Positions 31,268 through 46,544 of a DNA stretch of 48,534 nt are shown piece by piece (within the stretch, counting starts at the first letter, position 1; each line of letters begins with the position of its first letter). Under the pieces are notes generated by a model. That model searched no databases. It worked only from the letters and a program-made list of their open reading frames with translations, and was not told the origin of the DNA. The translations under genes were made by a program, and so were the position numbers. The stretch lies in contig PWHV01000028.1 of the NCBI GenBank assembly GCA_003555025.1, forward strand, positions 1 to 48,534, read 5' to 3'. The stretch is from Methanomassiliicoccaceae archaeon (lineage in GTDB: Archaea; Thermoplasmatota; Thermoplasmata; Methanomassiliicoccales; Methanomethylophilaceae).

Positions 31268-32047
31268 TCATGACCGCAGGAACGCCTTCACGTCCTCGAG
31301 CATGCATCTGAAATCGGCCTGCGACGCTACCACGTCCACCCTAACGTCCTCATTCCGCAGGGCATCGGCGGTGGGGGGTCCGATGGCGGCCACCGTCGAA
31401 TCCGCCAGCGCCGCGCGCGCCGACCCCTCTCCCAGCAGCCGGAAGGCGTGGTCGAGGAAAGTGAGCGCCGAGAGGGCGGAGCTGAACGCGAACGCGTCCA
31501 CATCGCCGGACGCGGCCTCCGCGGCAATGCGCTCCATATCCTCGCCGATGGCCTCGGCCTCAAGGCGGTAGGCGTGAATCTCGCGTACGTCGGCCCCTGC
31601 CGCCGCCAGGGCCTCTCTGAGGAGGGGCGTCCCTTTGTCGGAACGCAGCAGCACCGCCCTCTTTCCCGCGAGGGAGGAGGAGAAATCCTCGATCAGCCCT
31701 TCCGAGGTGTAGGCGGCGGGCATCAGCGCCTCTTCCGCCCCCAGCTGCGCGAGCCTGTCCCGGGTGGCCCTTCCTATCGCTATCAGTTCGCAGCGGCGCA
31801 GCAGACGCGCCAGCCCGCCCTCGTCCCCCAGGCGGCGGGCGCAGGCGTCCACCGCGGTCACCGATGTGAACAGCGCCGCGTCCACCTTCCCGGAGGCCAG
31901 CTCGGCGAAGAACGAGTCCATCGCCTCCCCGTCCCCGGGCAGTACCCGCAGGGAGGGCGCCGCCAGCGGGCGGAAGCCCAAGGACTCGGCCGCTCGCACG
32001 GACCCCTCGAGCCTATCGCGGGGGCGGGTGAATGCTATCGTTGTCAC
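31268..32047 (-). CDS. hemD: Uroporphyrinogen-III synthase
   Basis: A 259-residue protein with the low-conservation bilobal HemD pattern: IAFTRPRDR at the start, DAALFTSVTAVDA near 60, YTSEGL then KRAVLLRSDKG at the domain swap, DAFAFSSALSALTFLDH and AAIGPPTADALR near the end. It closes hydroxymethylbilane with D-ring inversion. The start is GTG 32047, overlapping the cobA stop as GTGA. Being between cobA and cfbA makes the call secure despite weak sequence signatures. Confidence 0.88.
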   Translation of the reverse strand: MTTIAFTRPRDRLEGSVRAAESLGFRPLAAPSLRVLPGDGEAMDSFFAELASGKVDAALFTSVTAVDACARRLGDEGGLARLLRRCELIAIGRATRDRLAQLGAEEALMPAAYTSEGLIEDFSSSLAGKRAVLLRSDKGTPLLREALAAAGADVREIHAYRLEAEAIGEDMERIAAEAASGDVDAFAFSSALSALTFLDHAFRLLGEGSARAALADSTVAAIGPPTADALRNEDVRVDVVASQADFRCMLEDVKAFLRS

Positions 32048-32787
32048 CGCAGGTCCCCCAACGTTACCATCCTCTCGACGCAGCCGCCGATGACGATGAT
32101 GCCGGGGGCCTTGAGCCCTGCGCGCTCCACATCCTCGGCGGCTGTGCCCAGCCTGCTAACCAGCGTCCGCTGGCCTTCGGTGCTTCCCTCGGTCATCACC
32201 GCCACTGGGGTCTCCGCCGGCATCCCGCCCTCCAGCAGGGAGGCGGATATGGAACGCAGGTTGCCCATGCCCATGAGGACCACTATGGTCCCCTTGCTCT
32301 CAGCGAGATGCGCCCAGTCGATGCGGTCCTCATCGCGGCCGGCGCGCTCATGGCCGGTCACTATGGTCACCTGCGAGGAATGGTCGCGATGGGTGACCGG
32401 CACGCCGCAGAGCTCGGGGACGGCGATGGCCGATGTCACACCGGGGACCACGTGGACCGTGATCCCGCGGCGCCGCAGGTGCTCGGCCTCCTCCGCGCCG
32501 CGGCCGAACAGGAACGGGTCGCCGCCCTTGAGGCGGACCACCATTTTACCTTGCTCGGCAAGATCGGCGAGCCTCTCGTTTATCTCCTCTTGACGGAGGG
32601 TGTGTTCCCCTCCCCGTTTGCCGGCGTCCACCCTCTCCGCCTGAGGATTCAGTTCGAGCAGGGAGCTGTCCACCAGCGCATCGTGGACCAAAACATCCGC
32701 CTGTTGTATCAGCTCCTTCCCCCGCACGGTGAGAAGCCCCGGGTCGCCGGGGCCGGCGCCCACCAGGTGGACCTCGCCCTCATTCAA
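32044..32787 (-). CDS. cobA: Uroporphyrinogen-III C-methyltransferase (SUMT)
   Basis: A 247-residue SAM methyltransferase with GAGPGDPGLLT at the N-terminus, MVVRLKGGDPFLFGRG near 80-97 and VVPGVTSAIAVPELCGVPVTHR. It makes precorrin-2 by methylating C2 and C7, the branch point toward siroheme, cobalamin and F430. Start is TTG 32787, overlapping the hemC TGA (TTGA). It is fused to no other domain, unlike CysG; the oxidase is the separate sirC gene at 37130. Confidence 0.95.
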   Translation of the reverse strand: MNEGEVHLVGAGPGDPGLLTVRGKELIQQADVLVHDALVDSSLLELNPQAERVDAGKRGGEHTLRQEEINERLADLAEQGKMVVRLKGGDPFLFGRGAEEAEHLRRRGITVHVVPGVTSAIAVPELCGVPVTHRDHSSQVTIVTGHERAGRDEDRIDWAHLAESKGTIVVLMGMGNLRSISASLLEGGMPAETPVAVMTEGSTEGQRTLVSRLGTAAEDVERAGLKAPGIIVIGGCVERMVTLGDLR

Positions 32788-33653
32788 GGACCCGCCTCCT
32801 TGAGCTTGGCAGCCATCGCCGCCAGGCCGTCGTCGTCTTCGAAATGCAGCGTCTCATCGCATGAGCGGCAGGAACCGTCCGACAACGAGAACGACATCGC
32901 CCTCACCCTCATGCCCCCGTCCTGCTCGCTGGCGAGTATGCCCACCGGAGAGGAGCAGTCAGCTCCCAGCATCTCCATCAACGTCCTCTCCGTCATGACC
33001 TCCCGGAAGGTGGCGTGATGGTTGACCCCTTCGAGGAGGGAGGCCGTCCCGTCATCACCCTCCCTGCAGGCCATGGCGATGGCCCCTTGCCCGGGCGCGG
33101 GGATGAAGTCATCCACGGGAAGGACGTGGTTCTCGCGGCGGATGCCGAGGCGCTCCATGCCCGCCCGGGCGAGTATTATCGCGTCGTATCGGCCCTCGTC
33201 GAGCTTGCGCAGCCTGGTGGTGACGTTGCCGCGTATGCTCTCCGCCTCCAGGTCGGGGCGGCAGCGACGCAGCATCGCCTCCCTCCGCACGCTGGAGCTG
33301 CCCACCTTCGCCCCCGGGGGCAGCTCATCCAGGGGGCAGGGGAGGACCACGTCCTCCACCGGGCCGCGGGGCAGGACCGCCGCTATCCTCACAGCTCCCT
33401 GCTGCAGCACCGGCATGTCCTTGAGGGAGTTGACGGAAACGTCGATCGCGGTGGCGGCGAGGGCGTTGTTCAGCTCGCGCACGAAGGCGCCGTAGCCTCC
33501 CAGGCGCTCCAAAGGGGTCTCGGTGTCCTGGTCGCCCTTGGTGCTGACCACCACCGTCTCCGTGGCGAGGGACGGCGACCGGCGCTGCAAAGCCTGGAGG
33601 AAAAGCTCTGTCTGCCTCAATGCCAGGGAGCTCCCCCTGGTGCCTACACGGAT
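32784..33653 (-). CDS. hemC: Hydroxymethylbilane synthase, apparently with an ATC start
   Basis: A 289-residue porphobilinogen deaminase. The frame carries the family N-terminus RVGTRGSSLALRQTE, then SLKDMP, SSVRREA and the cofactor cysteine in LGADCSSPVGI. No ATG, GTG or TTG precedes RVGTRG in frame. The next one downstream (TTG at 33620) would remove the GTRGSSLA substrate loop. GGAGGTG lies five nt before an ATC codon (33651-33653) that would give exactly the expected first residue, so ATC (or another rare codon) is the probable start. It overlaps the hemL stop by ten nt. Confidence 0.85.
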   Translation of the reverse strand: MRVGTRGSSLALRQTELFLQALQRRSPSLATETVVVSTKGDQDTETPLERLGGYGAFVRELNNALAATAIDVSVNSLKDMPVLQQGAVRIAAVLPRGPVEDVVLPCPLDELPPGAKVGSSSVRREAMLRRCRPDLEAESIRGNVTTRLRKLDEGRYDAIILARAGMERLGIRRENHVLPVDDFIPAPGQGAIAMACREGDDGTASLLEGVNHHATFREVMTERTLMEMLGADCSSPVGILASEQDGGMRVRAMSFSLSDGSCRSCDETLHFEDDDGLAAMAAKLKEAGP

Positions 33654-34918
33654 GGGTCCACCTCCCTCAATCCGGAGTCGAATGCCTCCAGCAGGCCGTC
33701 GAGGTGCTGGTTGTGATGCTCGGTGCAGAGGAAGTTACTCTCGAACTGCGACGGCGGCAGGTAATAACCCTGCTCGAGCATATGCAGGAAGAGGGCGCGG
33801 AAGGCGGCGGCGTCGCAGGCGGCGGCGTCGCTGCCGTTGCAGACCTGATCGGCACCGAGGAAGACCTGGAACATGGAGCCGACCGAGTTCACGCAGGCCT
33901 TGACGCCGCGGTCCGCGATGATGTCGCGCAGCCCGCCGGCCACCTTGTCCCCTTTGCTGTCCAGCGAACGGTAGGTCGCGGCGTCCAGATGGTTCAGGAC
34001 CGCCAGTCCGGCGGCGGCGGTCATGGGGTTTCCGGAGAAGGTGCCGGCCACGTACACCGGCCCCGAGGGGGACACCATCTCCATTATCTCCCTCCTTCCC
34101 AGCAGCGCGCCCGCGGGCAGCCCGCCGCCTATGGCCTTGCCCATGGTGCAAAGGTCCGCCTCCACGCCGTAGAGCTCCTGCGCACCGCCGGAGGAGACGC
34201 GCAGCCCGGTGATCACCTCGTCGAATATCAGCAACGTGCCGTTCTCCTCCGTCAATCGGCGCAGCTCGCGCAGATAGCCGGGCGCCGGGGGCACCACGCC
34301 GCAGTTGCCCATGACCGGCTCGACGATGACCGCCGCCACGTCCCCCTTCTCCAGGATGCTGGCGGCCGAATCCGGGTCGTTGAACTCCATCAGTGAGGTG
34401 GCCTCCACCGCCTCCGCGGGGACCCCGGCGCTGCCGGGCAGGCATCTCTCCATCGCCGCCGACCCCGGCTTCACCAGCAAGGCGTCGTGCGCTCCGTGGA
34501 ACCCGCCCACCGCTTTGACCACGCCGTTCCTGCCGGTGAAGCCCCGGGCCAGCCTGAGGGCATGCATCGTCGCCTCGCCGCCGCTGTTGGCCAGGCGCAT
34601 CATGTCCGCCCCGGGGACCCTGCCGACGAGCTTCTCCGCGAACTCCAGTTCCTGCGGCGAGGGGGCGCCGTAAAGCAGCCCCTCGTGCGCCTGGCGCATC
34701 ACCTCTTCGAAGACGGCGGGATGGCCATGGCCCAGTATCATCGGGCCGTAGCCGAGGCATAGATCCACCAGCCGGTTGCCGTCGACGTCGAACAGCAGAG
34801 GCCCGTCGGCCCTCTTGATGAATGACGGGAAGGGCGCGAAGGCCCGGATGGGACTGGAGACGCCACCGGGCATCACCGACCTGCTCCTTTCGTATAACCT
34901 CTCTGAATTCTCCCTCAT
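33644..34918 (-). CDS. hemL: Glutamate-1-semialdehyde 2,1-aminomutase
   Basis: A 424-residue PLP class III aminotransferase. SRSVMPGGVSSPIRAF opens the protein, LGYGPMILGHGHP and NSGGEATMHALRLAR follow, the cofactor lysine is in CTMGKAIGGGLPAG, and AGTFSGNPMTAAAGL near 300 is family-typical. It makes 5-aminolevulinate from the HemA product. The ATG follows the hemB stop by 14 nt. Together with hemA this defines the C5 route to tetrapyrroles. Confidence 0.95.
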   Translation of the reverse strand: MRENSERLYERSRSVMPGGVSSPIRAFAPFPSFIKRADGPLLFDVDGNRLVDLCLGYGPMILGHGHPAVFEEVMRQAHEGLLYGAPSPQELEFAEKLVGRVPGADMMRLANSGGEATMHALRLARGFTGRNGVVKAVGGFHGAHDALLVKPGSAAMERCLPGSAGVPAEAVEATSLMEFNDPDSAASILEKGDVAAVIVEPVMGNCGVVPPAPGYLRELRRLTEENGTLLIFDEVITGLRVSSGGAQELYGVEADLCTMGKAIGGGLPAGALLGRREIMEMVSPSGPVYVAGTFSGNPMTAAAGLAVLNHLDAATYRSLDSKGDKVAGGLRDIIADRGVKACVNSVGSMFQVFLGADQVCNGSDAAACDAAAFRALFLHMLEQGYYLPPSQFESNFLCTEHHNQHLDGLLEAFDSGLREVDPSV

Positions 34919-34932
34919 ATTATCCGGAACTC

Positions 34933-35895
34933 CTACAGCTTCGCAACGAGGTCGCGTGTGTAATAACTTGTTATGATGTCGGCGCCGCTCCTCTTGATGG
35001 CTGTGAGCGACTCGAGCATCGCCCGGTCGGCATCGAAGAGCCCCGCCGCCGCGCCGGACATGACCATGGCGTACTCCCCCGACACCTGGTAGGCGGCGAT
35101 GGGGACATCGAACGCGCCGCGGCAGTCGCTTATTATGTCCAGCGAGCTCATCGCCGGCTTGACCATGACCATGTCAGCGCCCTCGCCGATGTCCAGGGAG
35201 GCCTCCCGCATCGCCTCCCGGCGGTTGGCGACGTCCATCTGGTAGCCGGAGCGGTCGCCGAACGAGGGCGAGGAACAGGCCGCCTCCCGGAAGGGCCCGT
35301 AGAAGGCGCTGTCGTACTTCACCGCGTAGGACATGACCGGCACCATGTGGTGGCCCTCATCGTCCAAGGAACCGCGTATAGCCGCCACCATGCCGTCCAT
35401 CATGCCCGAGGGGGCGACGATGTCCGCCCCCGCCGCGGCGAGCGAGGACGCCGTCCCGGCGATGCGGGGAAGGGTGAGGTCGTTGTCCACCTCTCCGTCG
35501 CGGACTATGCCGCAATGGCCGTGGTCGGTGTACTCACAGAGGCAGACGTCGGCGATGACGTTCAGGTCCGCCGAGGACTTGATGGCCCGTACGGCGGACT
35601 GGGCGATGCCGTCCTCCTGCCAGGCGCCGCTTCCTTCCGCGTCCTTCCCCCGGGGGATGCCGAAGACCATCACCGACCGGACGCCCTCCGACTCGAGATC
35701 CTTCGCCAGCCTCGGGAGCGAGCGCAAAGGATGGGCCTCCACGCCGGGCAGGCAAGCTATCGGCCTCGCCTCATCATGCCTCTCGTCCACGAACAGCGGG
35801 AGGACCAGGTCCTCCGCTCGCAGCGCGGTCTCCCGCACCATCGAACGCAAGCCAGCGGCGGCCCGCAGGCGGCGCATCCTCACGGAGGGGAACAT
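34933..35895 (-). CDS. hemB: 5-Aminolevulinate dehydratase (porphobilinogen synthase)
   Basis: A 320-residue HemB. The zinc-type active site reads ADVCLCEYTDHGHCG with three cysteines; the Schiff-base lysines are in MSYAVKYDSAFYGPFREA and VMVKPA. It condenses two 5-aminolevulinates. Start: ATG 35895 shares its A with the hemA TGA (TGATG); a longer upstream frame runs inside hemA and is not used. The metal-binding cysteines imply Zn rather than Mg dependence. Confidence 0.96.
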   Translation of the reverse strand: MFPSVRMRRLRAAAGLRSMVRETALRAEDLVLPLFVDERHDEARPIACLPGVEAHPLRSLPRLAKDLESEGVRSVMVFGIPRGKDAEGSGAWQEDGIAQSAVRAIKSSADLNVIADVCLCEYTDHGHCGIVRDGEVDNDLTLPRIAGTASSLAAAGADIVAPSGMMDGMVAAIRGSLDDEGHHMVPVMSYAVKYDSAFYGPFREAACSSPSFGDRSGYQMDVANRREAMREASLDIGEGADMVMVKPAMSSLDIISDCRGAFDVPIAAYQVSGEYAMVMSGAAAGLFDADRAMLESLTAIKRSGADIITSYYTRDLVAKL

Positions 35896-37133
35896 CAGTC
35901 CCCCTCCAGGTCGAAGAGGTACTCCGCGGCCCGGCACAATTCCATGTCGCCGTTTCTGCACGCCTCCTTCAGACGCGAGAACGGGGCGGCCATGATCTTC
36001 GACACCAAAGCGCGGGAGAGGTCCTCGATGACCTCCTCGTTGCCATTGGCGGCCCTGCGCCGGCAGGCCCTGTCCATCTCCCGCTCCCGTATGCATGAGA
36101 CCTTCTGGTTGAGCACGCTTATCACCTTGTCCGCCTCCGTCTCGTCCCTTTCCCGCTGGTAACGGTCCAGCTCCTCGCAGACGATGCCCCCGGCGTCCGC
36201 CATCTCTTTGCGTCTGCGCTCGATGTTGGTCAACGCTATCTCCTTGAGGCCGTCCATGAGGCATAGCTCCACCCCGCCGACATCCTTCACCCCCGGGTCC
36301 ACGTTGGAGGGCATGGACACATCGATGACCAGCAGACCGGCCGCCCTGCCCTCCATCGCCTTCTCCACCGTCGCGCGGGAGAGGATCACATGAGGGGCGG
36401 CGGTGGCCACCAGCACGATGTCGCTCCGTCCCAGCACATGGGTCAGGGAGTCCATTCCCACGGCCACGCCATCGAGTTGATAGGCGAGCTCCTTGGCGTT
36501 CTCGTAGGTGCGGTTGGACACGAAGACCGCTCGCGGCCCCCTCCCCCGCAGGCTCTTGGCCACCAGGGTGGCCATCTCGCCTGCGCCCACCACGGTCACC
36601 ACCTTGCCCTCCAGGGTCCCCATGTGCTCCTCGGCCAGCTGCACCGCCGCTGAACCCACCGATACCGCCCCGTTGTTCAGCGAGGTCTCGGTCCTCACCC
36701 TCTTGCCCACTGAGAGCGCCTTCTCGAACAGGCCCCCCATCCTCGGCCCGGCGTCCCCCCTGTCCAACGCTTCAAGGTAAGCCTCCTTCACCTGATGCTG
36801 TATCTGGTCTTCGCCGATCATGAGCGAATCGAGCCCGCATACCACCTTGAAAAGGTGCTGGATGCTCTCCCTGCCCTCCAGAATGAACGAGGAGGCCCCC
36901 GTGCGGCTGTATGGGACCCGGTCCCTCACCAGTGATTCCAGCGACCGTTCTGCGGTCCCCGTGCCGTCGGAGGCTACGTACACCTCGAAGCGGTTGCAGG
37001 TGCTGAGCACCACATGCTCACATACGCCGTCCAACGCCAAGCCTTCTTCCACGAGCTCGCGCAGACGGGATATGGACCCTTCCAGCCCTTCCAAGCCCGC
37101 AGACAGGTGCGTCACATGCAGGCTCATGATCAT
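35895..37133 (-). CDS. hemA: Glutamyl-tRNA reductase
   Basis: A 412-residue protein with catalytic cysteine in LSTCNRFEVY (near 46), HLFKVVCGLDSLMIGEDQI, NADPH motif VVGAGEMATLVAKSL and a C-terminal dimerisation helix region. It reduces Glu-tRNA(Glu) to glutamate-1-semialdehyde. ATG 37133 overlaps the sirC stop (ATGA); a second ATG two codons on is also possible. Family regulation by heme is known elsewhere; nothing in the sequence shows it here. Confidence 0.96.
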   Translation of the reverse strand: MIMSLHVTHLSAGLEGLEGSISRLRELVEEGLALDGVCEHVVLSTCNRFEVYVASDGTGTAERSLESLVRDRVPYSRTGASSFILEGRESIQHLFKVVCGLDSLMIGEDQIQHQVKEAYLEALDRGDAGPRMGGLFEKALSVGKRVRTETSLNNGAVSVGSAAVQLAEEHMGTLEGKVVTVVGAGEMATLVAKSLRGRGPRAVFVSNRTYENAKELAYQLDGVAVGMDSLTHVLGRSDIVLVATAAPHVILSRATVEKAMEGRAAGLLVIDVSMPSNVDPGVKDVGGVELCLMDGLKEIALTNIERRRKEMADAGGIVCEELDRYQRERDETEADKVISVLNQKVSCIREREMDRACRRRAANGNEEVIEDLSRALVSKIMAAPFSRLKEACRNGDMELCRAAEYLFDLEGD

Positions 37134-37765
37134 GCGCCGTCCTCCAGGATGCGCATCGCCCTGTCCCTCGCCCGCTCATGATCGTTATCCGTCAACAGTC
37201 CCCATACCTCCTCATCGCGCATCACTGCGCGGAGGTAGCCGGCCCTCTCCTTTTGCCCGGAAAGCATCTGCCGCGCTATCGGCCGCATCTCCTCGAGCAA
37301 CCGCGCCATGGACTCGTAGCTCGGGCCGTAGAGCTCATCGGACCTCTCCATCAGGAACGGAGGGAGCACCGGGGCCCTTCCCTCGGTGGACGCGCAGAGG
37401 ACGAAACCGTCCCTTCTCCTCATCGAGGGTATCAGGAAATTGCCCCCTCCATGGACGGAGTTCACCAGCTTGCCCTCGCCCTTGGCCCTCTGCACTATGG
37501 CGTCGTTCAGATCCTTGTCGTCGGTGGCGGCAACCACCACGTCATGGGCCCTGATGAGGGACAGCGCATCCTCGTCCACGCTTTGCTCCAGGACCCTGGA
37601 AGCAAGGGGCTCCAGCTCCGGGAGCACCTTCTCGGCGACGACGGTGATCGCGCAGGACTGGAAATGCTCCGCCTTGCGCATGGCAACCCCGCCGCCGCCG
37701 AAGAACAGGGTCGACAGACGCTCCGGGGACACGAACAGCGGCACCATCTCCCGGTGCTCATTCAT
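37130..37765 (-). CDS. sirC: Precorrin-2 dehydrogenase (SirC/Met8-like)
   Basis: A 211-residue Rossmann protein: PLFVSPERLSTLFFGGGGVAMRKAEHF holds the NAD loop (GGGGVA, 24-29), then VVAATDDKDLN and a middle segment around NSVHGGGNFLIPSMRRRDG where the family has DDPELCDF-type residues. It oxidises precorrin-2 to sirohydrochlorin, the CfbA substrate. The Asp that serves chelation in Met8 is not evident, consistent with a dehydrogenase-only protein and a separate chelatase (cfbA). It overlaps the cfbC stop by eight nt. Confidence 0.88.
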   Translation of the reverse strand: MNEHREMVPLFVSPERLSTLFFGGGGVAMRKAEHFQSCAITVVAEKVLPELEPLASRVLEQSVDEDALSLIRAHDVVVAATDDKDLNDAIVQRAKGEGKLVNSVHGGGNFLIPSMRRRDGFVLCASTEGRAPVLPPFLMERSDELYGPSYESMARLLEEMRPIARQMLSGQKERAGYLRAVMRDEEVWGLLTDNDHERARDRAMRILEDGA

Positions 37766-38522
37766 CGCTCTCCACCTCTCTCTTCATCACGCTGTCCGCC
37801 AGCCGGCGGTAGATGGAGGCCAGGTCCCCGTCGGGGGAGTGCTCCATCACGGTCATGTCAGCGGCCTCGGCATCCTGCACCGCGGGGTGCCGCGGTATCC
37901 TGTCCACCACCCTGCTTCCCATATCCGCAGCGATGCCGTCGAGGATGTGGGCCTCGTCCTCTATGCCCCGCGAGTTCTGGATGACCCCGCAGAGCCGGGC
38001 GTAACCATGGGAGCGGAAATTGCCGATCGCCTCGGCGATGTTTCCCGCCGCGTAAGCCGACATCCTCTCCCCGGAGCTGACCACGTAGACCTCGCGGGCG
38101 TGGCCGTTGCGTATGGGCATGGCGAAACCGCCGCAGACCACGTCCCCCAGCACATCGTATATTACCACGTCGGGGCGGTGGGTGTCGAAGGCCTCCAGTC
38201 TGTCCAAGGTCTCAAAGGCGGTGATTATCCCCCTGCCGGCGCAGCCCACCCCGGGCCGGGGGCCGCCGCACTCGGCGCAGAGGACCCCGGCGAATCCGGG
38301 GCGGACGATCTCGTCAAGGACGGGCTCGCCCTCGCGACAGGCGTCCAGAATGGTCTTCTGCCGCCTTCCGTTCAGAAGCAGCGATGTGGAGTCGGCCTTG
38401 GGATCGCAGCCGACCTGCATGACCTTCACCCCCTGCGATGACAATGCGGCCGAGAGGTTGGAGGCGGTGGTGGACTTCCCGATGCCGCCCTTTCCGTAGA
38501 TGGCTATGCGCCTCCGACTCAT
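37758..38522 (-). CDS. cfbC: Ni-sirohydrochlorin a,c-diamide reductive cyclase, NifH-like subunit
   Basis: A 254-residue NifH-type ATPase. GKGGIGKSTTASNLS is the P-loop, QVGCDPKADS switch I, and the two cluster cysteines lie in GVGCAGRGI and DVLGDVVCGGFAMPIR, where NifH holds its bridging [4Fe-4S]. It feeds electrons to CfbD with ATP hydrolysis. ATG 38522 is chosen because the NifH fold begins there (RRRIAIYGKGG); an upstream frame to 38582 crosses the promoter. It is the first gene of the F430 run and has an inverted repeat upstream. Confidence 0.95.
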   Translation of the reverse strand: MSRRRIAIYGKGGIGKSTTASNLSAALSSQGVKVMQVGCDPKADSTSLLLNGRRQKTILDACREGEPVLDEIVRPGFAGVLCAECGGPRPGVGCAGRGIITAFETLDRLEAFDTHRPDVVIYDVLGDVVCGGFAMPIRNGHAREVYVVSSGERMSAYAAGNIAEAIGNFRSHGYARLCGVIQNSRGIEDEAHILDGIAADMGSRVVDRIPRHPAVQDAEAADMTVMEHSPDGDLASIYRRLADSVMKREVESDE

Positions 38523-38539
38523 CAATGGGCAATCAGGAT

Positions 38540-38571
38540 GGGTATAGTAATACTTTTTGCATACAAAAGTA
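38540..38571 (-). promoter_or_regulatory. Promoter and inverted-repeat operator before cfbC
   Basis: A perfect inverted repeat, TACTTTT, seven nt, AAAAGTA (38551-38571), lies 29-49 nt before ATG 38522. The TATA-like TTACTATACC (38540-38549) sits between it and the start. The repeat is just upstream of the TATA box, where archaeal activators or repressors bind. Confidence 0.55.
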
Positions 38572-38723
38572 ACACTAAACAATCGTTTCCGCCTTCCAGG
38601 CGTTTCCGTCGTCGCTTGTTCATCGCCGCTCTCGGATTAAGATGAGGAGACCGACGCTGGTCAAGGCGGACGAGGACATGGTGCCACCTGAGGGCGCCCC
38701 TTCGCCGATACCCTGATGAAGAA

Positions 38724-39518: not shown

Positions 39519-39539
39519 GATAAGATAAATATCCTTATC
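39519..39539 (+). promoter_or_regulatory. TATA box inside an inverted repeat before the CARF-like gene
   Basis: GATAAG and CTTATC (39519-39524 and 39534-39539) flank ATAAATATC, which holds the TATA box about 25 nt before ATG 39556. No ribosome site is seen, so the gene is probably leaderless. The symmetry over the TATA suggests control by a dimeric repressor. Confidence 0.5.
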
Positions 39540-39555
39540 GTTTTATCAATATTCC

Positions 39556-40041
39556 ATGGCGAAGGTCCTTGTGTCGGTGATATCCACCAATGTTTACGGC
39601 CTCCTCAACTCCATGTGGTGCATGGTGCGCAGGTTCGGATTCCTTCCGCAGAAGGTGCACGTGCTGAGCTCGGAGGAGAAATCGGAGACGCATGCCATGC
39701 TGGGGGAGATGCTGGCGATAGTCCTTGAGGAGCATGGCATCGAGTCACCGCGGATAGAATGGCATAACTTCCCCAGCGGGGACCTCGCCGGCCTCGCCCG
39801 CCTGGTCTCCTCCATTGTGGAGGACGAGGTGTCGCAGGGCAACACCTTCGCCGTCGACGCCACCCCTGGGAAGAAGAACGAGATGATCGCCTGCCTGGCG
39901 AGGTCATTGGCCCATCCGAGCTGCGAGCACGTGTTCTACAGCGAGCTGAGCAGCTATGAGAACACCCGCAAGCCGTTCATCCTCATACCGTGGCAGTTCA
40001 TCACCCCCTACGACATCAAACAGGAGGCGAGAGGAGGATGA
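39556..40041 (+). CDS. CARF-like (ligand-sensing Rossmann) protein
   Basis: A 161-residue single-domain protein. Strand 1 (AKVLVSVIST, 2-11) is followed by helix and a second strand (KVHVLSS, 33-39), then residues 98-110 read FAVDATPGKKNEM, matching the (T/S)xGxK loop with following helix that binds cyclic oligoadenylate in CARF domains (usual form TGGTK). HVFYSEL after it is the next strand. CARF proteins sense cOA made by type III CRISPR complexes or other ligands. Here the nuclease is a separate gene overlapping by four nt (ATGA). Confidence 0.55.
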   Translation: MAKVLVSVISTNVYGLLNSMWCMVRRFGFLPQKVHVLSSEEKSETHAMLGEMLAIVLEEHGIESPRIEWHNFPSGDLAGLARLVSSIVEDEVSQGNTFAVDATPGKKNEMIACLARSLAHPSCEHVFYSELSSYENTRKPFILIPWQFITPYDIKQEARGG

Positions 40042-41165
40042 GCGTGTTCGTCGCCGGCAAGGAATTCCTCACCGCGGTGCTGAACGAGGTCTGCATGGAC
40101 GAGCGGTTCGACCGTTTCACCGTGCGGGATGAGTTCATGGGCCAGAAGCTATTCGACGTGAGATGCTCCGACCTGCGCCTGGACAACATCGCCTCGCGGG
40201 ACAGTATGGGCGAGGCGAGGGCCGAGCTCCTTCTGTCGATCGACTCGGCGCATCATCAGGAGGTGCCCTCTCACGACGACCTGCGGTCCTGTTTCCACTC
40301 GTCGTTGCTGCTGCCGCCGCAGAACATCGACGAGGTGGCGGGGGCCATCAACGACGCGGTGGCGGCCTCCCGCCGCCGCCAGGGCTTCCTCGGCCAGCAG
40401 GCGGTGTCCATCGACAGCAACCTCGCCTACAAGCGTCTGCTCAGCCGCCTCTACCTGGAGCGCTCGCGGTTCGGCATCGAGTACGAGAACCCCAAGGACC
40501 TCATGGTCACCATCTCGAAGGTGTCGATCAGGGAGCTCGCCCGGGCCTCCAACCATAAACTGGACCGCAGGAAGGACCCCGGGGGCTTGAAACGGGCCTT
40601 GCACGGAAGAAGCTTCGCCGATGCCCTCCCCAACCGACCGACCCTCCGAGCCACCAAGGCGCTGAACGCCCTCGCCGAGCACGGGGCGATAAGGGACATC
40701 TTCACCTATTACGAGGTGGACGGCGGGATGGACGACGTCCATGACAGCGCCGCCGCTGACGAGATGATCGTGCGCGAGCTTTCCGCCCACAACCGCCCCG
40801 GCCAGCTGGACCAGGTCTTTCTCACCGCCGATGACTCCATGAGCTCCCTCCTCGACGGGGAGAGGATGCGCCATGCGGTGATAAAGTATCCCAAAGAGCT
40901 GCCCTCCCGCCTTGATTCCACTCCTTGGCTGCTGCGCGAGCTGCTCTACGACCTCTCCCTGCTGTTCCGCTGCATAAGGATAGAGGGCACCGGCGTGAGC
41001 GTCATGGGGATATGGCCGGACAAGGCCAGCAATGACTACGGCAACGAGAGGATATGCATCGCCGTCGAGGAGGGCAGCCGCATCGGCGACGAGCTCCGGC
41101 GGGACCACCGCATCCTCCAACGCTTCCACGGTTCCGAGGGGATCGACCTGCGGCGACTGCGATGA
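40038..41165 (+). CDS. PIN-domain nuclease partner of the CARF-like protein
   Basis: A 375-residue protein. Residues 1-115 are unassigned. Residues 120-270 follow the PIN fold: QAVSIDSNLAYKRL (D126), ISKVSIRELA (E166), DVHDSAAADEMIVREL (D236, D241) and QVFLTADDSM (D265, D266), giving the acidic site of a metal-dependent RNase. The C-terminus (295-345) has a Leu-rich LLRELLYDLSLLF helix and VSVMGIWPDK. Start: ATG 40038 overlaps the CARF-like stop; GTG 40044, six nt after GGAGG, is an alternative. The overlap implies stoichiometric production and probably a complex with the preceding gene product. Confidence 0.6.
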   Translation: MSVFVAGKEFLTAVLNEVCMDERFDRFTVRDEFMGQKLFDVRCSDLRLDNIASRDSMGEARAELLLSIDSAHHQEVPSHDDLRSCFHSSLLLPPQNIDEVAGAINDAVAASRRRQGFLGQQAVSIDSNLAYKRLLSRLYLERSRFGIEYENPKDLMVTISKVSIRELARASNHKLDRRKDPGGLKRALHGRSFADALPNRPTLRATKALNALAEHGAIRDIFTYYEVDGGMDDVHDSAAADEMIVRELSAHNRPGQLDQVFLTADDSMSSLLDGERMRHAVIKYPKELPSRLDSTPWLLRELLYDLSLLFRCIRIEGTGVSVMGIWPDKASNDYGNERICIAVEEGSRIGDELRRDHRILQRFHGSEGIDLRRLR

Positions 41166-41283: not shown

Positions 41284-44200
41284 ATGGCCCATCGATTGTC
41301 GGTCGGCGTTCCCGATCAAGGTTCGGTGCTGCTCATCTGTGACCGGAGCAGCCCACTGGAATGGGCCGACACGGTACTCAGTTCCGCTGGTTGCCGAACG
41401 GAGCGTTGCACCGTGTCCGACGCTTCGACGGTCTTGCGGGATAAGGCACACGATGCCGTGGTTTGCTTCATGCCCTCGGGGGACGAGCGTCCCTTGCGCA
41501 TCCTCGAGCGGCTGCGCGACGGCGGCGATGCCGTCCCTTATGCGTTGGTCTCGGAGATATGCGACGCTGATACGGTGATGCGCGCCCTCAATTCCGGAGC
41601 CGACCTGTTCCTGCCCCAGGGGGGCTCTCAGAACGAGGACGATCTGATGCGGTTCGTGGATAGGACATTGTCCAGGCCACGGGCGCCGATCAGTCTGGAC
41701 GGAGAGGCCAGCGGCCTGTTCGCGGTCCTCGATGAGCTGAAGGACGCCGTTGTGATGATCGATGGGGACGGCAATCTGATATACGCCAACCAGGCCGCCC
41801 GCGACCTGCTCGGTCTGGGGTGGGAGGACCTGGACGACATAGACCTTCTGGACATAGTGAGCCCACAGACCGAGGGCCGGTCCATGGAACCGATACGGGG
41901 GCGGATAAGGAGCAACCACTGGGATTTCAAGGAGTACCGGTTCCTCAACGCCGACGGAGAGGAGATCGTGGTGGAGGCCTCCGCGCTGCTGCTGAGACAT
42001 CATGGCAGGCCGGTCGACATGCTCATCTTCCGCGACATCACCGAGAGCAAGCGCGCCTCCGATTCGGTCGAGGAGGAGATGGATAAGCTGAAGTCGATGT
42101 TCGAAGCCGTGGACCAGTTGGTGTATGTGGTGGACATCGATCAATACGAGATCCTCTATCTCAACAAGGCCGCCAAGGAGAGGAACGGCAAATGCCTCGA
42201 GGGCGGTAGATGCTACCGCCACCTGCAGGGCAAGGACTCGCCCTGCGATTTCTGCAACAAGGACATCATCATGAAGATGAATGGGCAGCCTTACGTGTGG
42301 GAGCATTACAACGAGGTATTGGACAGGCATTTCCATGTCATCAACAGGATGATACCCTGGCCCGACGGCAGGATGGTGCGCTTCGAGATGGCCGTGGACA
42401 TCAGCGACAGCAAGAAGGCTTTGATGTCCCTCTCCGAGGAGAAGGAGAGGGCCTCCAGGATACTCGACTCCATGCCGGACATGGTCTTCATCATCGACAA
42501 AGGGTTCCGTATCGTGGACCACCGGACCGAGGACGGCAGCGGCGCGGGCATAGACGCGCAGAAGATGATCGGCAAAGGGTTGCGGGATGTCCTCGATGCC
42601 GAGGCCGCTGCGGATGCGGAAGCGAGGATCACGGAGGCGTTCCGCACCGGCATGACACAGGAAATGGACATCTCCGCGGACGTCGACGGCAATGAGGCCC
42701 ATTTCAGCGCCAGGGTGGCCAAGCTTTCCGACACGGAGGCCATCGCAGCGGTGCGTGACATCACCGAGGTCAAGAAGACCGAGGAGGTGCTCCGCGAGAG
42801 CGAGGAGCGCTACCGCAACCTCTTCGACAACGCGCCCGCGATGGTAGTGATCTACGACTGGAGTACGATGGACGTCGTCTACGCCAACCGCTTGGCGATA
42901 GAGGCCGGGGGCTACGATGACCTGGAGGACATGAAGCGCACTGGCATGCTCTGGTCCGACCCGCCTTACTCCCGCGACGACGCCTTCAAGGTGTTGCAGA
43001 GATTGGAGAGCGAGTCCGCTGTCGAGGTCGTATGGCCGAGCAAGCGCAAGGACGGCAGCACATTCTGGAAGATGCTCACGCTCAGCATCGTCCCCATCGG
43101 CGGAAAAAAGCGCATCGTCTCGATATCACAGGACATAAGCGAGAGGGTGGAGGTCTACCAAGCCATGAAGGATGCGGAGAGGCGGTACCGCACCCTGATA
43201 TCCGCATCGAACACCGGCGCATGGGAGTACCACCGCGAAGATGACCGTCTTTGGTCGAGCCCTGAGTACTTCAGCATGCTGGGGAGAGAGCCTCCTTGGC
43301 AGGAGGATGAGGGCGACCTCCGGAGCGATTGGGTGGAACTGATACATCCTGAAGACCGTCAAGGAGCGCTGAGCACTTTCCTGGATTACCTGGAGGAACA
43401 GCCGGACGAGATGTACGAGAACACCTTCCGCATGAGCCACGCCGAAGGGGGATGGGTATGGATATGGTCCCGCGGAAGGACTTTGCGCGATGAGCAGGGC
43501 AGGGCGACCGATGTCACGGTTGGCACTCACATAGACATAACGGAGATCAAGGAGATGCAGTTCGCCCTCGCTGAGAGCGAGCGTGCCTTCCGCACCCTGG
43601 CGGACAGCGGCCACGCCATCGTTTACACCACCGATTCCGATGGGGCGCTGACTTATCTGAGCAAAAGGTGGGAGGAATTCACCGGCAAGAGCGCAGAAGA
43701 AGGCCTAAAAGCCGGCCGGCTCGGTTTCGTCCACGAGGAAGACCGGCCCAGTGTCCGTGAGCAGTTCTCCGACGGGATCGAGGGCCGGAAGCCGTTCACC
43801 CTCAGCTACCGCCATCTCAACCGCGATTGCGGATACCGGTGGGTGCAGGACGGCGCCGTGCCCTTGTATGACGGCGAGGGTATGTACCAAGGGCACATCG
43901 GACAGGTGGTGGACATCCACGAGCTGCGAACCATGGAGGACTCGCTGCGGACGACGAACGCCAAGCTCAATCTGATGACCAGCGTCACCAGGCACGACAT
44001 CCTCAACCAGCTGATGGTAATGAAAGGATACATCACCCTCCTCAAGGAGAAGGCCGGCGATGAGGAGCTGAGAAAGTACGCTAAAAGCCTGGAGAGTTCG
44101 TCCGACCTCATACAGAAGCAGATCGAGTTCACCAACGAGTACCAGAAGCTCGGCGTCAATTCCCCGGAATGGCAGGATGTCGAGTCGGTCATCGCAGCTC

Positions 44201-44580
44201 AGACGCATCGGCCGCTGAAGATGGAGAAGAATGTCTCTGGCCTTGAGGTCTACGCCGACCCGTTGTTCGAGAACGTGTTCCGCAACCTCATCGACAACTC
44301 CAAGCGCCACGGCGGAGATGTGAGCATTATAAGGATATGGCATGAGGTCGGCCGCGACGGATGGCTCCGCCTGTACTACGAGGACGACGGACCTGGTATA
44401 CCTCGATCGGAGAAGGCCAGGGTTTTCCGGAAGGGCTATGGCAGCAACAGGGGGCTGGGCCTGTTCCTCGTCAAAGAGATACTGGATATCACGGATATGG
44501 AGATAACAGAGGCCGGTTCGAAAGGAGAGGGGGTCCTTTTCCGCATCGATGCACCTCCGGGAGCATACCGGTTCCGCTGA
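41284..44580 (+). CDS. Multi-PAS sensor histidine kinase with a degenerate receiver
   Basis: A 1098-residue protein. Residues 1-135 have receiver-like strand order, but where the phosphoacceptor Asp belongs it reads AVVCFMPSG, so it is a pseudo-receiver. About six PAS domains follow, linked by RDITESK/DISDSK-type motifs; the second has a Cys motif (GRCYRHLQGKDSPCDFC). The H-box is TRHDILNQL and the ATPase domain has NLIDNSKRHGG, YEDDGPGIP and GLGLFLVKEIL. No membrane helix is seen, so the sensor is cytosolic. ATG 41284 is preferred to an upstream frame because of the TATA spacing. The response protein starts 107 nt downstream. Confidence 0.93.
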   Translation: MAHRLSVGVPDQGSVLLICDRSSPLEWADTVLSSAGCRTERCTVSDASTVLRDKAHDAVVCFMPSGDERPLRILERLRDGGDAVPYALVSEICDADTVMRALNSGADLFLPQGGSQNEDDLMRFVDRTLSRPRAPISLDGEASGLFAVLDELKDAVVMIDGDGNLIYANQAARDLLGLGWEDLDDIDLLDIVSPQTEGRSMEPIRGRIRSNHWDFKEYRFLNADGEEIVVEASALLLRHHGRPVDMLIFRDITESKRASDSVEEEMDKLKSMFEAVDQLVYVVDIDQYEILYLNKAAKERNGKCLEGGRCYRHLQGKDSPCDFCNKDIIMKMNGQPYVWEHYNEVLDRHFHVINRMIPWPDGRMVRFEMAVDISDSKKALMSLSEEKERASRILDSMPDMVFIIDKGFRIVDHRTEDGSGAGIDAQKMIGKGLRDVLDAEAAADAEARITEAFRTGMTQEMDISADVDGNEAHFSARVAKLSDTEAIAAVRDITEVKKTEEVLRESEERYRNLFDNAPAMVVIYDWSTMDVVYANRLAIEAGGYDDLEDMKRTGMLWSDPPYSRDDAFKVLQRLESESAVEVVWPSKRKDGSTFWKMLTLSIVPIGGKKRIVSISQDISERVEVYQAMKDAERRYRTLISASNTGAWEYHREDDRLWSSPEYFSMLGREPPWQEDEGDLRSDWVELIHPEDRQGALSTFLDYLEEQPDEMYENTFRMSHAEGGWVWIWSRGRTLRDEQGRATDVTVGTHIDITEIKEMQFALAESERAFRTLADSGHAIVYTTDSDGALTYLSKRWEEFTGKSAEEGLKAGRLGFVHEEDRPSVREQFSDGIEGRKPFTLSYRHLNRDCGYRWVQDGAVPLYDGEGMYQGHIGQVVDIHELRTMEDSLRTTNAKLNLMTSVTRHDILNQLMVMKGYITLLKEKAGDEELRKYAKSLESSSDLIQKQIEFTNEYQKLGVNSPEWQDVESVIAAQTHRPLKMEKNVSGLEVYADPLFENVFRNLIDNSKRHGGDVSIIRIWHEVGRDGWLRLYYEDDGPGIPRSEKARVFRKGYGSNRGLGLFLVKEILDITDMEITEAGSKGEGVLFRIDAPPGAYRFR

Positions 44581-44687
44581 CGGCATCATTCCGCAACGGG
44601 ACTCCATCGTCGTGCAGTCCTGATAACCGGTCGAAAACGATTAAACGTCAAAAGAAAGATGACCTTCCCTCCGCATCCGGTGATCGC

Positions 44688-46544
44688 ATGTCAGGTCAGT
44701 CTTCCGGCAAGGTCAAGCTCCTCTACGTGGACGATGAGCCCCATCTCCTGGAGATGTGCAGGACATATTTCGAGCGCAACGGCGGAATGGCGGTCGACAC
44801 CGCCTCCGGAGCGGCCGAGGCCTTGGAGCTGGCACGCAGGAACGACTACCATGCCATAATATCCGACTACCAGATGGACGGCGCCGACGGCCTTCAGCTG
44901 CTGAAGGACATCCGCTCCAGCGGCGACCGGACACCGTTCATAATCTTCACTGGCAAAGGTGGCGAGGATGTCGCCATCCGCGCCCTCAACCTGGGCGCCG
45001 ACTTCTATATACGCAAGGACAGCGACGTCCAGCAGCTCTATGGCGAGTTGGAGGACGTGCTCCTCCGGCAGGTGGAGCGCTACCAGGAGGAGAGGCTGAG
45101 GTCGGTGGAGCTGGATCTTCTGAAGCTACTGGGCGGCGATGGGGCTACCCAGACCGTCCTGGACTCGATCGTCTCCATAGCCGAGGAGCACGACCCCTCC
45201 ATAGTTTGCACGGTCATGCTGTATGACGAGGAGGAGAATGTCCTCAGGCTCATCTCCGGTCCCGGTTTGGACGAGCGATACCGAGCCCTGTTGAGGGAGG
45301 GGTTCCCCGTGGGGGGGCGCCATGGCTCCTGCGGCACCGCCGCTCACACACTGTCCCTGGTCTCGGTTCCGGACATCGGCGAGAGCCCGTTGTGGCAACC
45401 ATACCCGGAAGTGCTGGGGGCCGTCGTATCATCGGGCCTCAGGTCATGCTGGTCCAAGCCCGTGATCTCCGCCGACGGCAGGCTGCTGGGAACCATCGCC
45501 AATTACGGACGCGCCCCCGGCCCGCCCACGGAGGCTAACATATCTGTGCTGGACTGGCTTGTCAGAGTGGCCGCCATAGCCATAGAGAGGCATTCGCTCG
45601 AGGACTGGTTCGCAAAAGCGTACGAGCGCTACAAGGAGATGCTGGCCAACTCCAATGAGGCGACGGTGCTCCTCGATGATGATGCGAGGGCGGTATACGC
45701 CAACCCCAAGGCGGAGGAGCTGCTCGATGACGGACTGGAGGGCAAGGACTTCAGCATGCTTCTCGAACCACTCTACAAGGAAAGGCTGACCACCATAGTC
45801 AAGGCGTTGGGGAAGGGGGACAACGCCGACATGGAAGCGCCGTTCCTCCTACGTTCGGGGAGGGCGCTGCCTTGCAAGGTCTCGCTGCGCGGCGACCGGA
45901 TCGAGGGAGCGGAGTGGAGTGTGAACGCGGTGATCAAGGATTGCCCCTCCAAAGTCCAGACCATAGATGAGGCCTGGGACGGCATCGAAGGTCCCGCGGA
46001 CCTCGAGGCGGCGATGGGCCGCATGTCCCGCCTCTTCTCCGCCGGCGAGGATTTCGATGTGAGCGTGGACAAGGCGTTGGCGATACTGGGCAAGCTCAGC
46101 GGCGCCAGCCGCACCTACCTTTTCCTTCTTAACGACGACGGCGAGGTCATGAGGAACAGCCACGAGTGGTGCGCCCAGGGCGTGGAGCCGCAGAAGCACC
46201 GGCTGCAGAACGAGCGCGTCGATGAGATAGTATGGTGGATCGATAGGTTGGAGAAGGACGGCGTCATCGAGATCCCCGACGTGTCGGAGATGCCGCCCGA
46301 GGCCGAGCGGGAGAGGAAAATCCTCGAACTGCAGGGTATAAAGTCCCTCTACGTACTGCCGGTGGAGATCGCTGGCTCGGTGGTGGGATTCATCGGGTTC
46401 GATGATGTGGACAACGTCGGCGATCGGTCCGCCGCGGACAAGAGGCTGTTGCGCGTAGGGGTGGGCATCATCGGGTCCTCGGTGGCCCTGGAGAGGGCCG
46501 AGAGGGAGCTGAGGGCCATGATGGCCGACTGCGAGGCCACATAG
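44688..46544 (+). CDS. Receiver-GAF-PAS-GAF response protein without a recognised output domain
   Basis: A 618-residue protein. The receiver (about 10-125) is intact: VDDEPH, Asp in IISDYQMDGADG and FTGKGGED. A GAF domain (about 135-285), a PAS (about 305-370) and a second GAF (about 430-590) follow. There is no kinase, HTH or cyclic-dinucleotide domain, so the output is unclear; it may relay a signal by protein contact. GGTGATC precedes ATG 44688. It lies 107 nt after the PAS kinase and is its likely partner. Confidence 0.88.
   Translation: MSGQSSGKVKLLYVDDEPHLLEMCRTYFERNGGMAVDTASGAAEALELARRNDYHAIISDYQMDGADGLQLLKDIRSSGDRTPFIIFTGKGGEDVAIRALNLGADFYIRKDSDVQQLYGELEDVLLRQVERYQEERLRSVELDLLKLLGGDGATQTVLDSIVSIAEEHDPSIVCTVMLYDEEENVLRLISGPGLDERYRALLREGFPVGGRHGSCGTAAHTLSLVSVPDIGESPLWQPYPEVLGAVVSSGLRSCWSKPVISADGRLLGTIANYGRAPGPPTEANISVLDWLVRVAAIAIERHSLEDWFAKAYERYKEMLANSNEATVLLDDDARAVYANPKAEELLDDGLEGKDFSMLLEPLYKERLTTIVKALGKGDNADMEAPFLLRSGRALPCKVSLRGDRIEGAEWSVNAVIKDCPSKVQTIDEAWDGIEGPADLEAAMGRMSRLFSAGEDFDVSVDKALAILGKLSGASRTYLFLLNDDGEVMRNSHEWCAQGVEPQKHRLQNERVDEIVWWIDRLEKDGVIEIPDVSEMPPEAERERKILELQGIKSLYVLPVEIAGSVVGFIGFDDVDNVGDRSAADKRLLRVGVGIIGSSVALERAERELRAMMADCEAT

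Follow-up and report, generated by a model that had tools for sequence, protein, structure and literature searches.

A two-gene pair of predicted CARF sensor and PIN nuclease, conserved in the Thermoplasmatota and mostly outside type III CRISPR

The gene pair and its surroundings

The window, i.e. the whole stretch of DNA analysed here, comprises 48,534 nucleotides of a Methanomassiliicoccaceae archaeon (PWHV01000028.1 of GenBank assembly GCA_003555025.1) and forms contig 24 of a genome of 1.41 Mb and 97% completeness. Two genes on its forward strand are the subject of this report. ORF1 (39556–40041, ATG start) encodes a protein of 161 aa, predicted from PADLOC profiles, an AlphaFold model, PDB fold matches and conserved residues to be a stand-alone CARF_m1 sensor, while ORF2 (40038–41165; ATG at 40038, stop at 41165) encodes a 375-aa protein, predicted from PADLOC, Pfam matches of its homologues, AlphaFold and fold matches to be a PIN nuclease with N- and C-terminal domains of its own. 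The ORF1 stop and the ORF2 start share the sequence ATGA (40038–40041, forward strand), the four-base overlap already read from this locus in a preliminary description. Across homologous loci the junction is likewise a short overlap or a short gap, ranging from −14 to +15 bases when starts are set by a simple start-codon rule.

A TATA-like element, ATAAATAT (39525–39532, forward strand), stands 24–31 bases 5′ of the ORF1 ATG, within the palindrome GATAAATATCCTTATC (39524–39539). Of the earlier proposal of a leaderless promoter with a symmetric TATA, the first part stands: ATAAATAT(CC) also occurs upstream of the ORF1 homologue in four members of the same genus, a recurrence that fits what would be expected of a leaderless archaeal promoter and transcript. 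The second part does not, as the palindrome GATAAATATCCTTATC is absent from the upstream regions of those four homologues and its symmetry is therefore taken to be incidental.

Among the neighbouring genes, a minus-strand cluster at 31268–38582 for heme, siroheme and coenzyme F430 synthesis is typical of a methanogen and includes hemA, hemB, hemD, a siroheme-type NAD-binding protein and a NifH-like protein that is probably CfbC; msrA is also among the neighbours, and matches to a methylcobamide:CoM methyltransferase and to RamA fall in other parts of the window. The genes that directly follow the pair (41284–46541) encode a large multi-PAS histidine kinase and then a response regulator with a GAF domain, an arrangement that is kept beside the pair only within the genus, barring scattered PAS-domain matches. 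PADLOC matches to DndA/SspA in the window most likely represent a NifS/IscS-type cysteine desulfurase and were set aside.

ORF1, a predicted CARF protein

Direct sequence searches of both proteins against the PDB returned nothing of note, neither window protein matched Pfam or NCBIfam above cut-off, and PHROGs gave no matches. ORF1 is identified by the PADLOC CARF_m1 models, with E-values of 6.9e-18 for PDLC01972, 2e-14 for PDLC01973 and 1.2e-12 for PDLC01971; it covers PDLC01971 and PDLC01972, the stand-alone CARF_m1 families, at nearly full length. Its AlphaFold model, built with 52 homologues as input, has a pLDDT of 92.5 and shows a Rossmann fold of alternating strands and helices, and almost all of the best 50 PDB fold matches listed are CARF proteins, both CARF effectors and ring nucleases, led by SiRe_0806 and followed by Csm6, Cam1, Sis0811, Can2 and Card1. 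A profile of the ORF1 family likewise found Sso2081, SiRe_0806, Sis0455 and Card1 among the sequences of solved structures. The same profile matched TAL-effector repeats (E-values down to 7e-14), which we treat as a composition artefact because these matches fall in the helical middle of the protein and nearly all lack any single stretch that passes on its own. By profile and predicted structure, then, ORF1 belongs among the CARF proteins, in the minor clade CARF_m1, and lacks a DNA-binding domain, and the CARF call first made by eye is sustained; profile and fold matches alike pointed to CARF and to no other Rossmann family.

The likely ligand loop is the motif DATPGKK (codons 101–107, D101–K107; 39856–39876, forward strand), which in the model follows the fourth strand of the Rossmann fold. 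Conservation across the phylum is high among the 52 homologues at N18 (52 of 52), P31 (50), D101 (49), T103 (49) and K107 (48), and P140 is also among the conserved residues; K107 or an arginine equivalent is missing from three homologues.

Through one homologue (L123), the loop aligns with the DITGGRK loop of the ring nuclease Sis0455. This alignment of the K107 loop, together with the recovery of Sso2081 and its relatives by the family profile, would suit a reading in which the main task of ORF1 is to clear a cyclic oligonucleotide as a ring nuclease, with ORF2 controlled in some other way. The position equivalent to S11 of Sis0455, however, is serine in only 23 of the 52 homologues and asparagine in the window protein; ORF2 carries no other recognised sensor domain in scans of Pfam, NCBIfam and PADLOC profiles; and searches of the window's own genome yielded nothing that would supply a cyclic oligonucleotide. 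We consider such a role for ORF1 very improbable.

ORF2, a predicted PIN nuclease

ORF2 matches positions 188–456 of the PADLOC CARF_m1 CARF_PIN model (PDLC01973; E = 6e-9), and its homologues, though not the window protein itself, match Pfam PIN_4 and PIN_12. The AlphaFold model has a pLDDT of 90.3, and in the PDB fold search SiRe_0806 once more ranks first, with the isolated PIN domain 3i8o next. An approximate PIN core, whose boundaries were judged from the model and the alignment, spans residues 118–290 (40389–40907, forward strand) and holds five conserved acidic residues: D126 (51 of 51 homologues), E166 (49), E214 (50), D241 (51) and D265 (49). Two homologues lack E166 and two have glutamate in place of D265. 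The N-terminal domain is conserved in homologues as well, and the C-terminal domain carries a conserved GxWxxK motif (residues 324–329; 41007–41024, forward strand) with G324 in 45, W326 in 50 and K329 in 48 of the 51 homologues. The profile match, the catalytic residues and the fold search all mark ORF2 as a protein with a PIN nuclease domain and predicted nuclease activity, as the preliminary description had supposed; across the 51 homologues D126 and D241 are invariant, and E166 and D265 nearly so.

In VapBC operons two genes overlap and the PIN gene comes second, and the overlap and order of ORF1 and ORF2 are of the same kind. ORF2 might accordingly be a constitutively active PIN toxin held by a bound ORF1 antitoxin, and be released by loss of ORF1 rather than by a ligand. 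A CARF domain can indeed repress: RtcR becomes active when its CARF domain is removed (PMC9650030). Yet ORF2 is much larger than VapC, ORF1 lacks a domain for binding DNA, its ligand-loop residues are kept across the phylum where a mere plug would not need them, and fused CARF-PIN relatives exist. A toxin-antitoxin-like module thus appears distinctly unlikely.

Distribution and evolution of the pair

Of the 284 Thermoplasmatota genomes, 49 carry the CARF_PIN family. All loci with two complete genes share one layout, in which the CARF gene immediately precedes the PIN gene and is read in a different frame, and no fused version was found in the Thermoplasmatota loci examined; the split sensor-nuclease pair first noticed in the window is thus real and is conserved in every complete locus of the phylum. 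Within the genus, dN/dS is 0.08–0.25 for the CARF gene and 0.08–0.20 for the PIN gene, which shows both to be under purifying selection. Because all complete loci keep the two homologues in one order and dN/dS is low, the pairing is far beyond chance. The CARF and PIN distance matrices are correlated (r = 0.75; none of 2000 permutations was as high), although shared vertical descent alone would also give rise to such a correlation.

No third gene was found to be conserved with the pair across lineages, and the neighbours common to pair loci reflect local synteny; in six loci, Csa3-like CARF3 regulators are found close to the pair. The loci that depart from the complete pair are those at contig ends or assembly gaps, together with one truncated PIN remnant that lies inside a contig of genome G050 (L050:2872–3711, also L140), lacks a CARF gene and the first half of the nuclease, and represents either a copy that has decayed or a misjoin in the assembly. 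Genome G147 has three copies of the pair (L098, L099, L100) on three contigs, as opposed to the single copy found elsewhere. Relatives of ORF2 were not found in plasmids, phages or viral contigs, so there is no sign of mobile carriage. A separate collection scan used a 16-member subset of the PIN alignment, as the diverse alignment was too variable, and reached only Methanomassiliicoccales-type records, which belong to methylotrophic methanogens of the Thermoplasmatota.

CRISPR and cyclic-nucleotide synthase context

The window contains no CRISPR-like direct-repeat array, and a PADLOC scan of its 43 main ORFs (a set without ORF2) gave no Cas matches. The whole genome (97% complete) gave no match to any of six marker families, namely Cas10, RAMP, Cas1, mCpol, SMODS and DAC; that is, it has neither the Cas10 and RAMP genes expected around a type III accessory effector nor the SMODS CD-NTase or mCpol synthase of a CBASS or mCpol system. 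The earlier remark that no cas gene or array is visible at the locus is thereby extended to the genome, which lacks detectable type III machinery.

CRISPR genes and cyclic-oligoadenylate synthases, which the preliminary description had suggested seeking in the gene neighbourhoods of homologues, were surveyed across the 284 Thermoplasmatota genomes, which are mostly draft assemblies and in which divergent synthases could escape the marker profiles. Cas10 passed its cut-off in 3 of the 49 genomes with the pair versus 4 of the 235 others, and RAMP genes were found in 4 of 49 versus 6 of 235 (P = 0.07), an enrichment that allows a weak link to type III systems. Taken together, Cas10 or RAMP matches occur in 4 of the 49 pair genomes, and 45 have neither; the pair lies mostly outside type III CRISPR. 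Strong Cas1 matches were present in 16 of 49 pair genomes and 59 of 235 others. Weak, two-piece Cas1-like matches were also seen in frames of about 320–440 aa in ten genomes (G017, G022, G036, G060, G138, G193, G210, G214, G219 and G226), and these are possibly divergent Cas1 relatives or false matches.

With regard to other synthases, mCpol was found in none of the 49 pair genomes and SMODS exceeded its cut-off in three. DAC, the c-di-AMP cyclase, was more widespread (22 of 49), but it is missing both from the genome of the window and from every pair-bearing member of the Methanomassiliicoccales, and so is no general source of the ligand.

These counts bear on whether the pair is an orphan cyclic-oligoadenylate effector, which would answer Cas10-made cA4 as its fused relative does, with genomes that lack Cas10 explained either as keeping the leftover of a lost type III system or as meeting the synthase on incoming mobile elements. 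The fused homologue has been crystallized with cA4 (PDB 9jxx), RAMP and Cas10 matches are slightly commoner in pair genomes, and the CARF-less PIN remnant of G050 could be read as decay. On the other hand, a leftover should decay generally, whereas in the 45 pair genomes without Cas10 or RAMP the genes are intact and ordered, and within the genus they are under purifying selection. On balance we regard an orphan effector of this kind as unlikely.

A proposed working of the pair

The reading that we favour, and consider probable, is that the two proteins form a two-subunit, ligand-gated ribonuclease, a split form of the CARF_m1 CARF-PIN effector. CARF proteins are known to bind small oligonucleotide ligands and to gate the nucleases attached to them (literature and PDB structures). 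By analogy, ORF1 would dimerize as other CARF proteins do, and the pocket that includes the conserved residues N18, D101, T103 and K107 would bind a small, oligonucleotide-type ligand. ORF1 may sit on the N-terminal domain of ORF2 much as the CARF domain does in the fusion, so that ligand binding would turn on the PIN site (D126, E166, D241, D265). Activated ORF2 would then cut RNA, and the cell might be slowed or stopped under stress or infection.

We infer that a second messenger controls the pair. Because the window's own genome has no known synthase and type III genes occur in few of the pair genomes, Cas10 is most likely not the source of the ligand, which could be a cyclic oligonucleotide from an unrecognized synthase or a product of RNA damage, as proposed for RtcR, whose CARF domain binds tRNA fragments as well as RtcA and RtcB and which oligoadenylates do not activate; RtcR thus offers a precedent for CARF signalling that does not use oligoadenylates (PMC9650030). 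A broader view, namely that these loci constitute a widespread archaeal CARF-gated RNase system wholly independent of Cas10-made cyclic oligoadenylate, in which a separate CARF subunit senses the messenger of an undescribed synthase or an RNA-damage product, we advance tentatively, as a possibility held at somewhat under even confidence.

If correct, a Cas10-independent pair would represent a branch of CARF signalling that is independent of CRISPR. What is understood of CARF effectors comes almost wholly from cyclic oligoadenylates made by Cas10, and here a conserved sensor-nuclease pair occurs in 49 genomes of one phylum, 45 of which have no detectable type III genes. Because the sensor does not share a polypeptide with the nuclease, either protein can be purified and assayed by itself, and what CARF domains sense outside CRISPR therefore becomes directly testable.

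Comparison with known systems

The CARF and PIN folds, the fused architecture and the stand-alone CARF_m1 models are already known. Two CARF families linked with PIN domains were noted in a 2014 survey, in which both cas1 and cas10 were missing from only nine of 145 CARF-bearing genomes (PMC4012209), and a later study of Csa3 considered homologues from Cas10-less organisms to be of high interest in the search for other CARF ligands (PMC8844856). The pair had been described as uncharacterized; this is apt for its split, two-gene form, but less so for its components, given the fused CARF-PIN family with its cA4 crystal structure (9jxx) and the stand-alone CARF_m1 models in PADLOC. As far as the tools used here show, what is new with respect to that survey, the PADLOC models and the cA4-bound fused structure is the consistent two-gene form across the phylum and its independence from Cas10.

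The closest relative is SiRe_0806 of Sulfolobus islandicus (PDB 9jxw, apo; 9jxx, with cA4), which has the same domains in the same order as ORF1 and ORF2. Since the two proteins match successive stretches (2–151 and 188–456) of one fusion profile, PDLC01973, and both have SiRe_0806 as their top fold match, we identify them, on profiles and predicted structures, as a natural split of a SiRe_0806-type CARF_m1 CARF-PIN effector. There are two differences. First, SiRe_0806 and the CARF_m1 CARF_PIN family of PDLC01973 are single polypeptides, whereas the window and all complete Thermoplasmatota loci have two genes. Second, the SiRe_0806 lineage has type III CRISPR, whereas no Cas10 was detected in the genome of the window. 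The stand-alone CARF_m1 families PDLC01971 and PDLC01972 resemble ORF1, but the PADLOC library pairs them with no partner PIN family.

More distantly, Csm6/Csx1, Card1/Can2 and Cam1 share with ORF1 the CARF fold and a conserved loop after the fourth strand, but their effector domains are different ones, fused to the CARF domain and controlled by messengers that Cas10 makes. VapBC likewise is an overlapping two-gene operon with the PIN gene last; it combines a DNA-binding antitoxin with a small PIN toxin, neither of which is found here, as ORF1 is a predicted CARF protein and the 375-aa ORF2 is far larger. Finally, the CARF domain of RtcR signals outside CRISPR and does so with partner proteins and ligands derived from RNA (PMC9650030), but RtcR is a transcription activator and not a nuclease, such that its likeness to ORF1 and ORF2 is one of functional analogy only.
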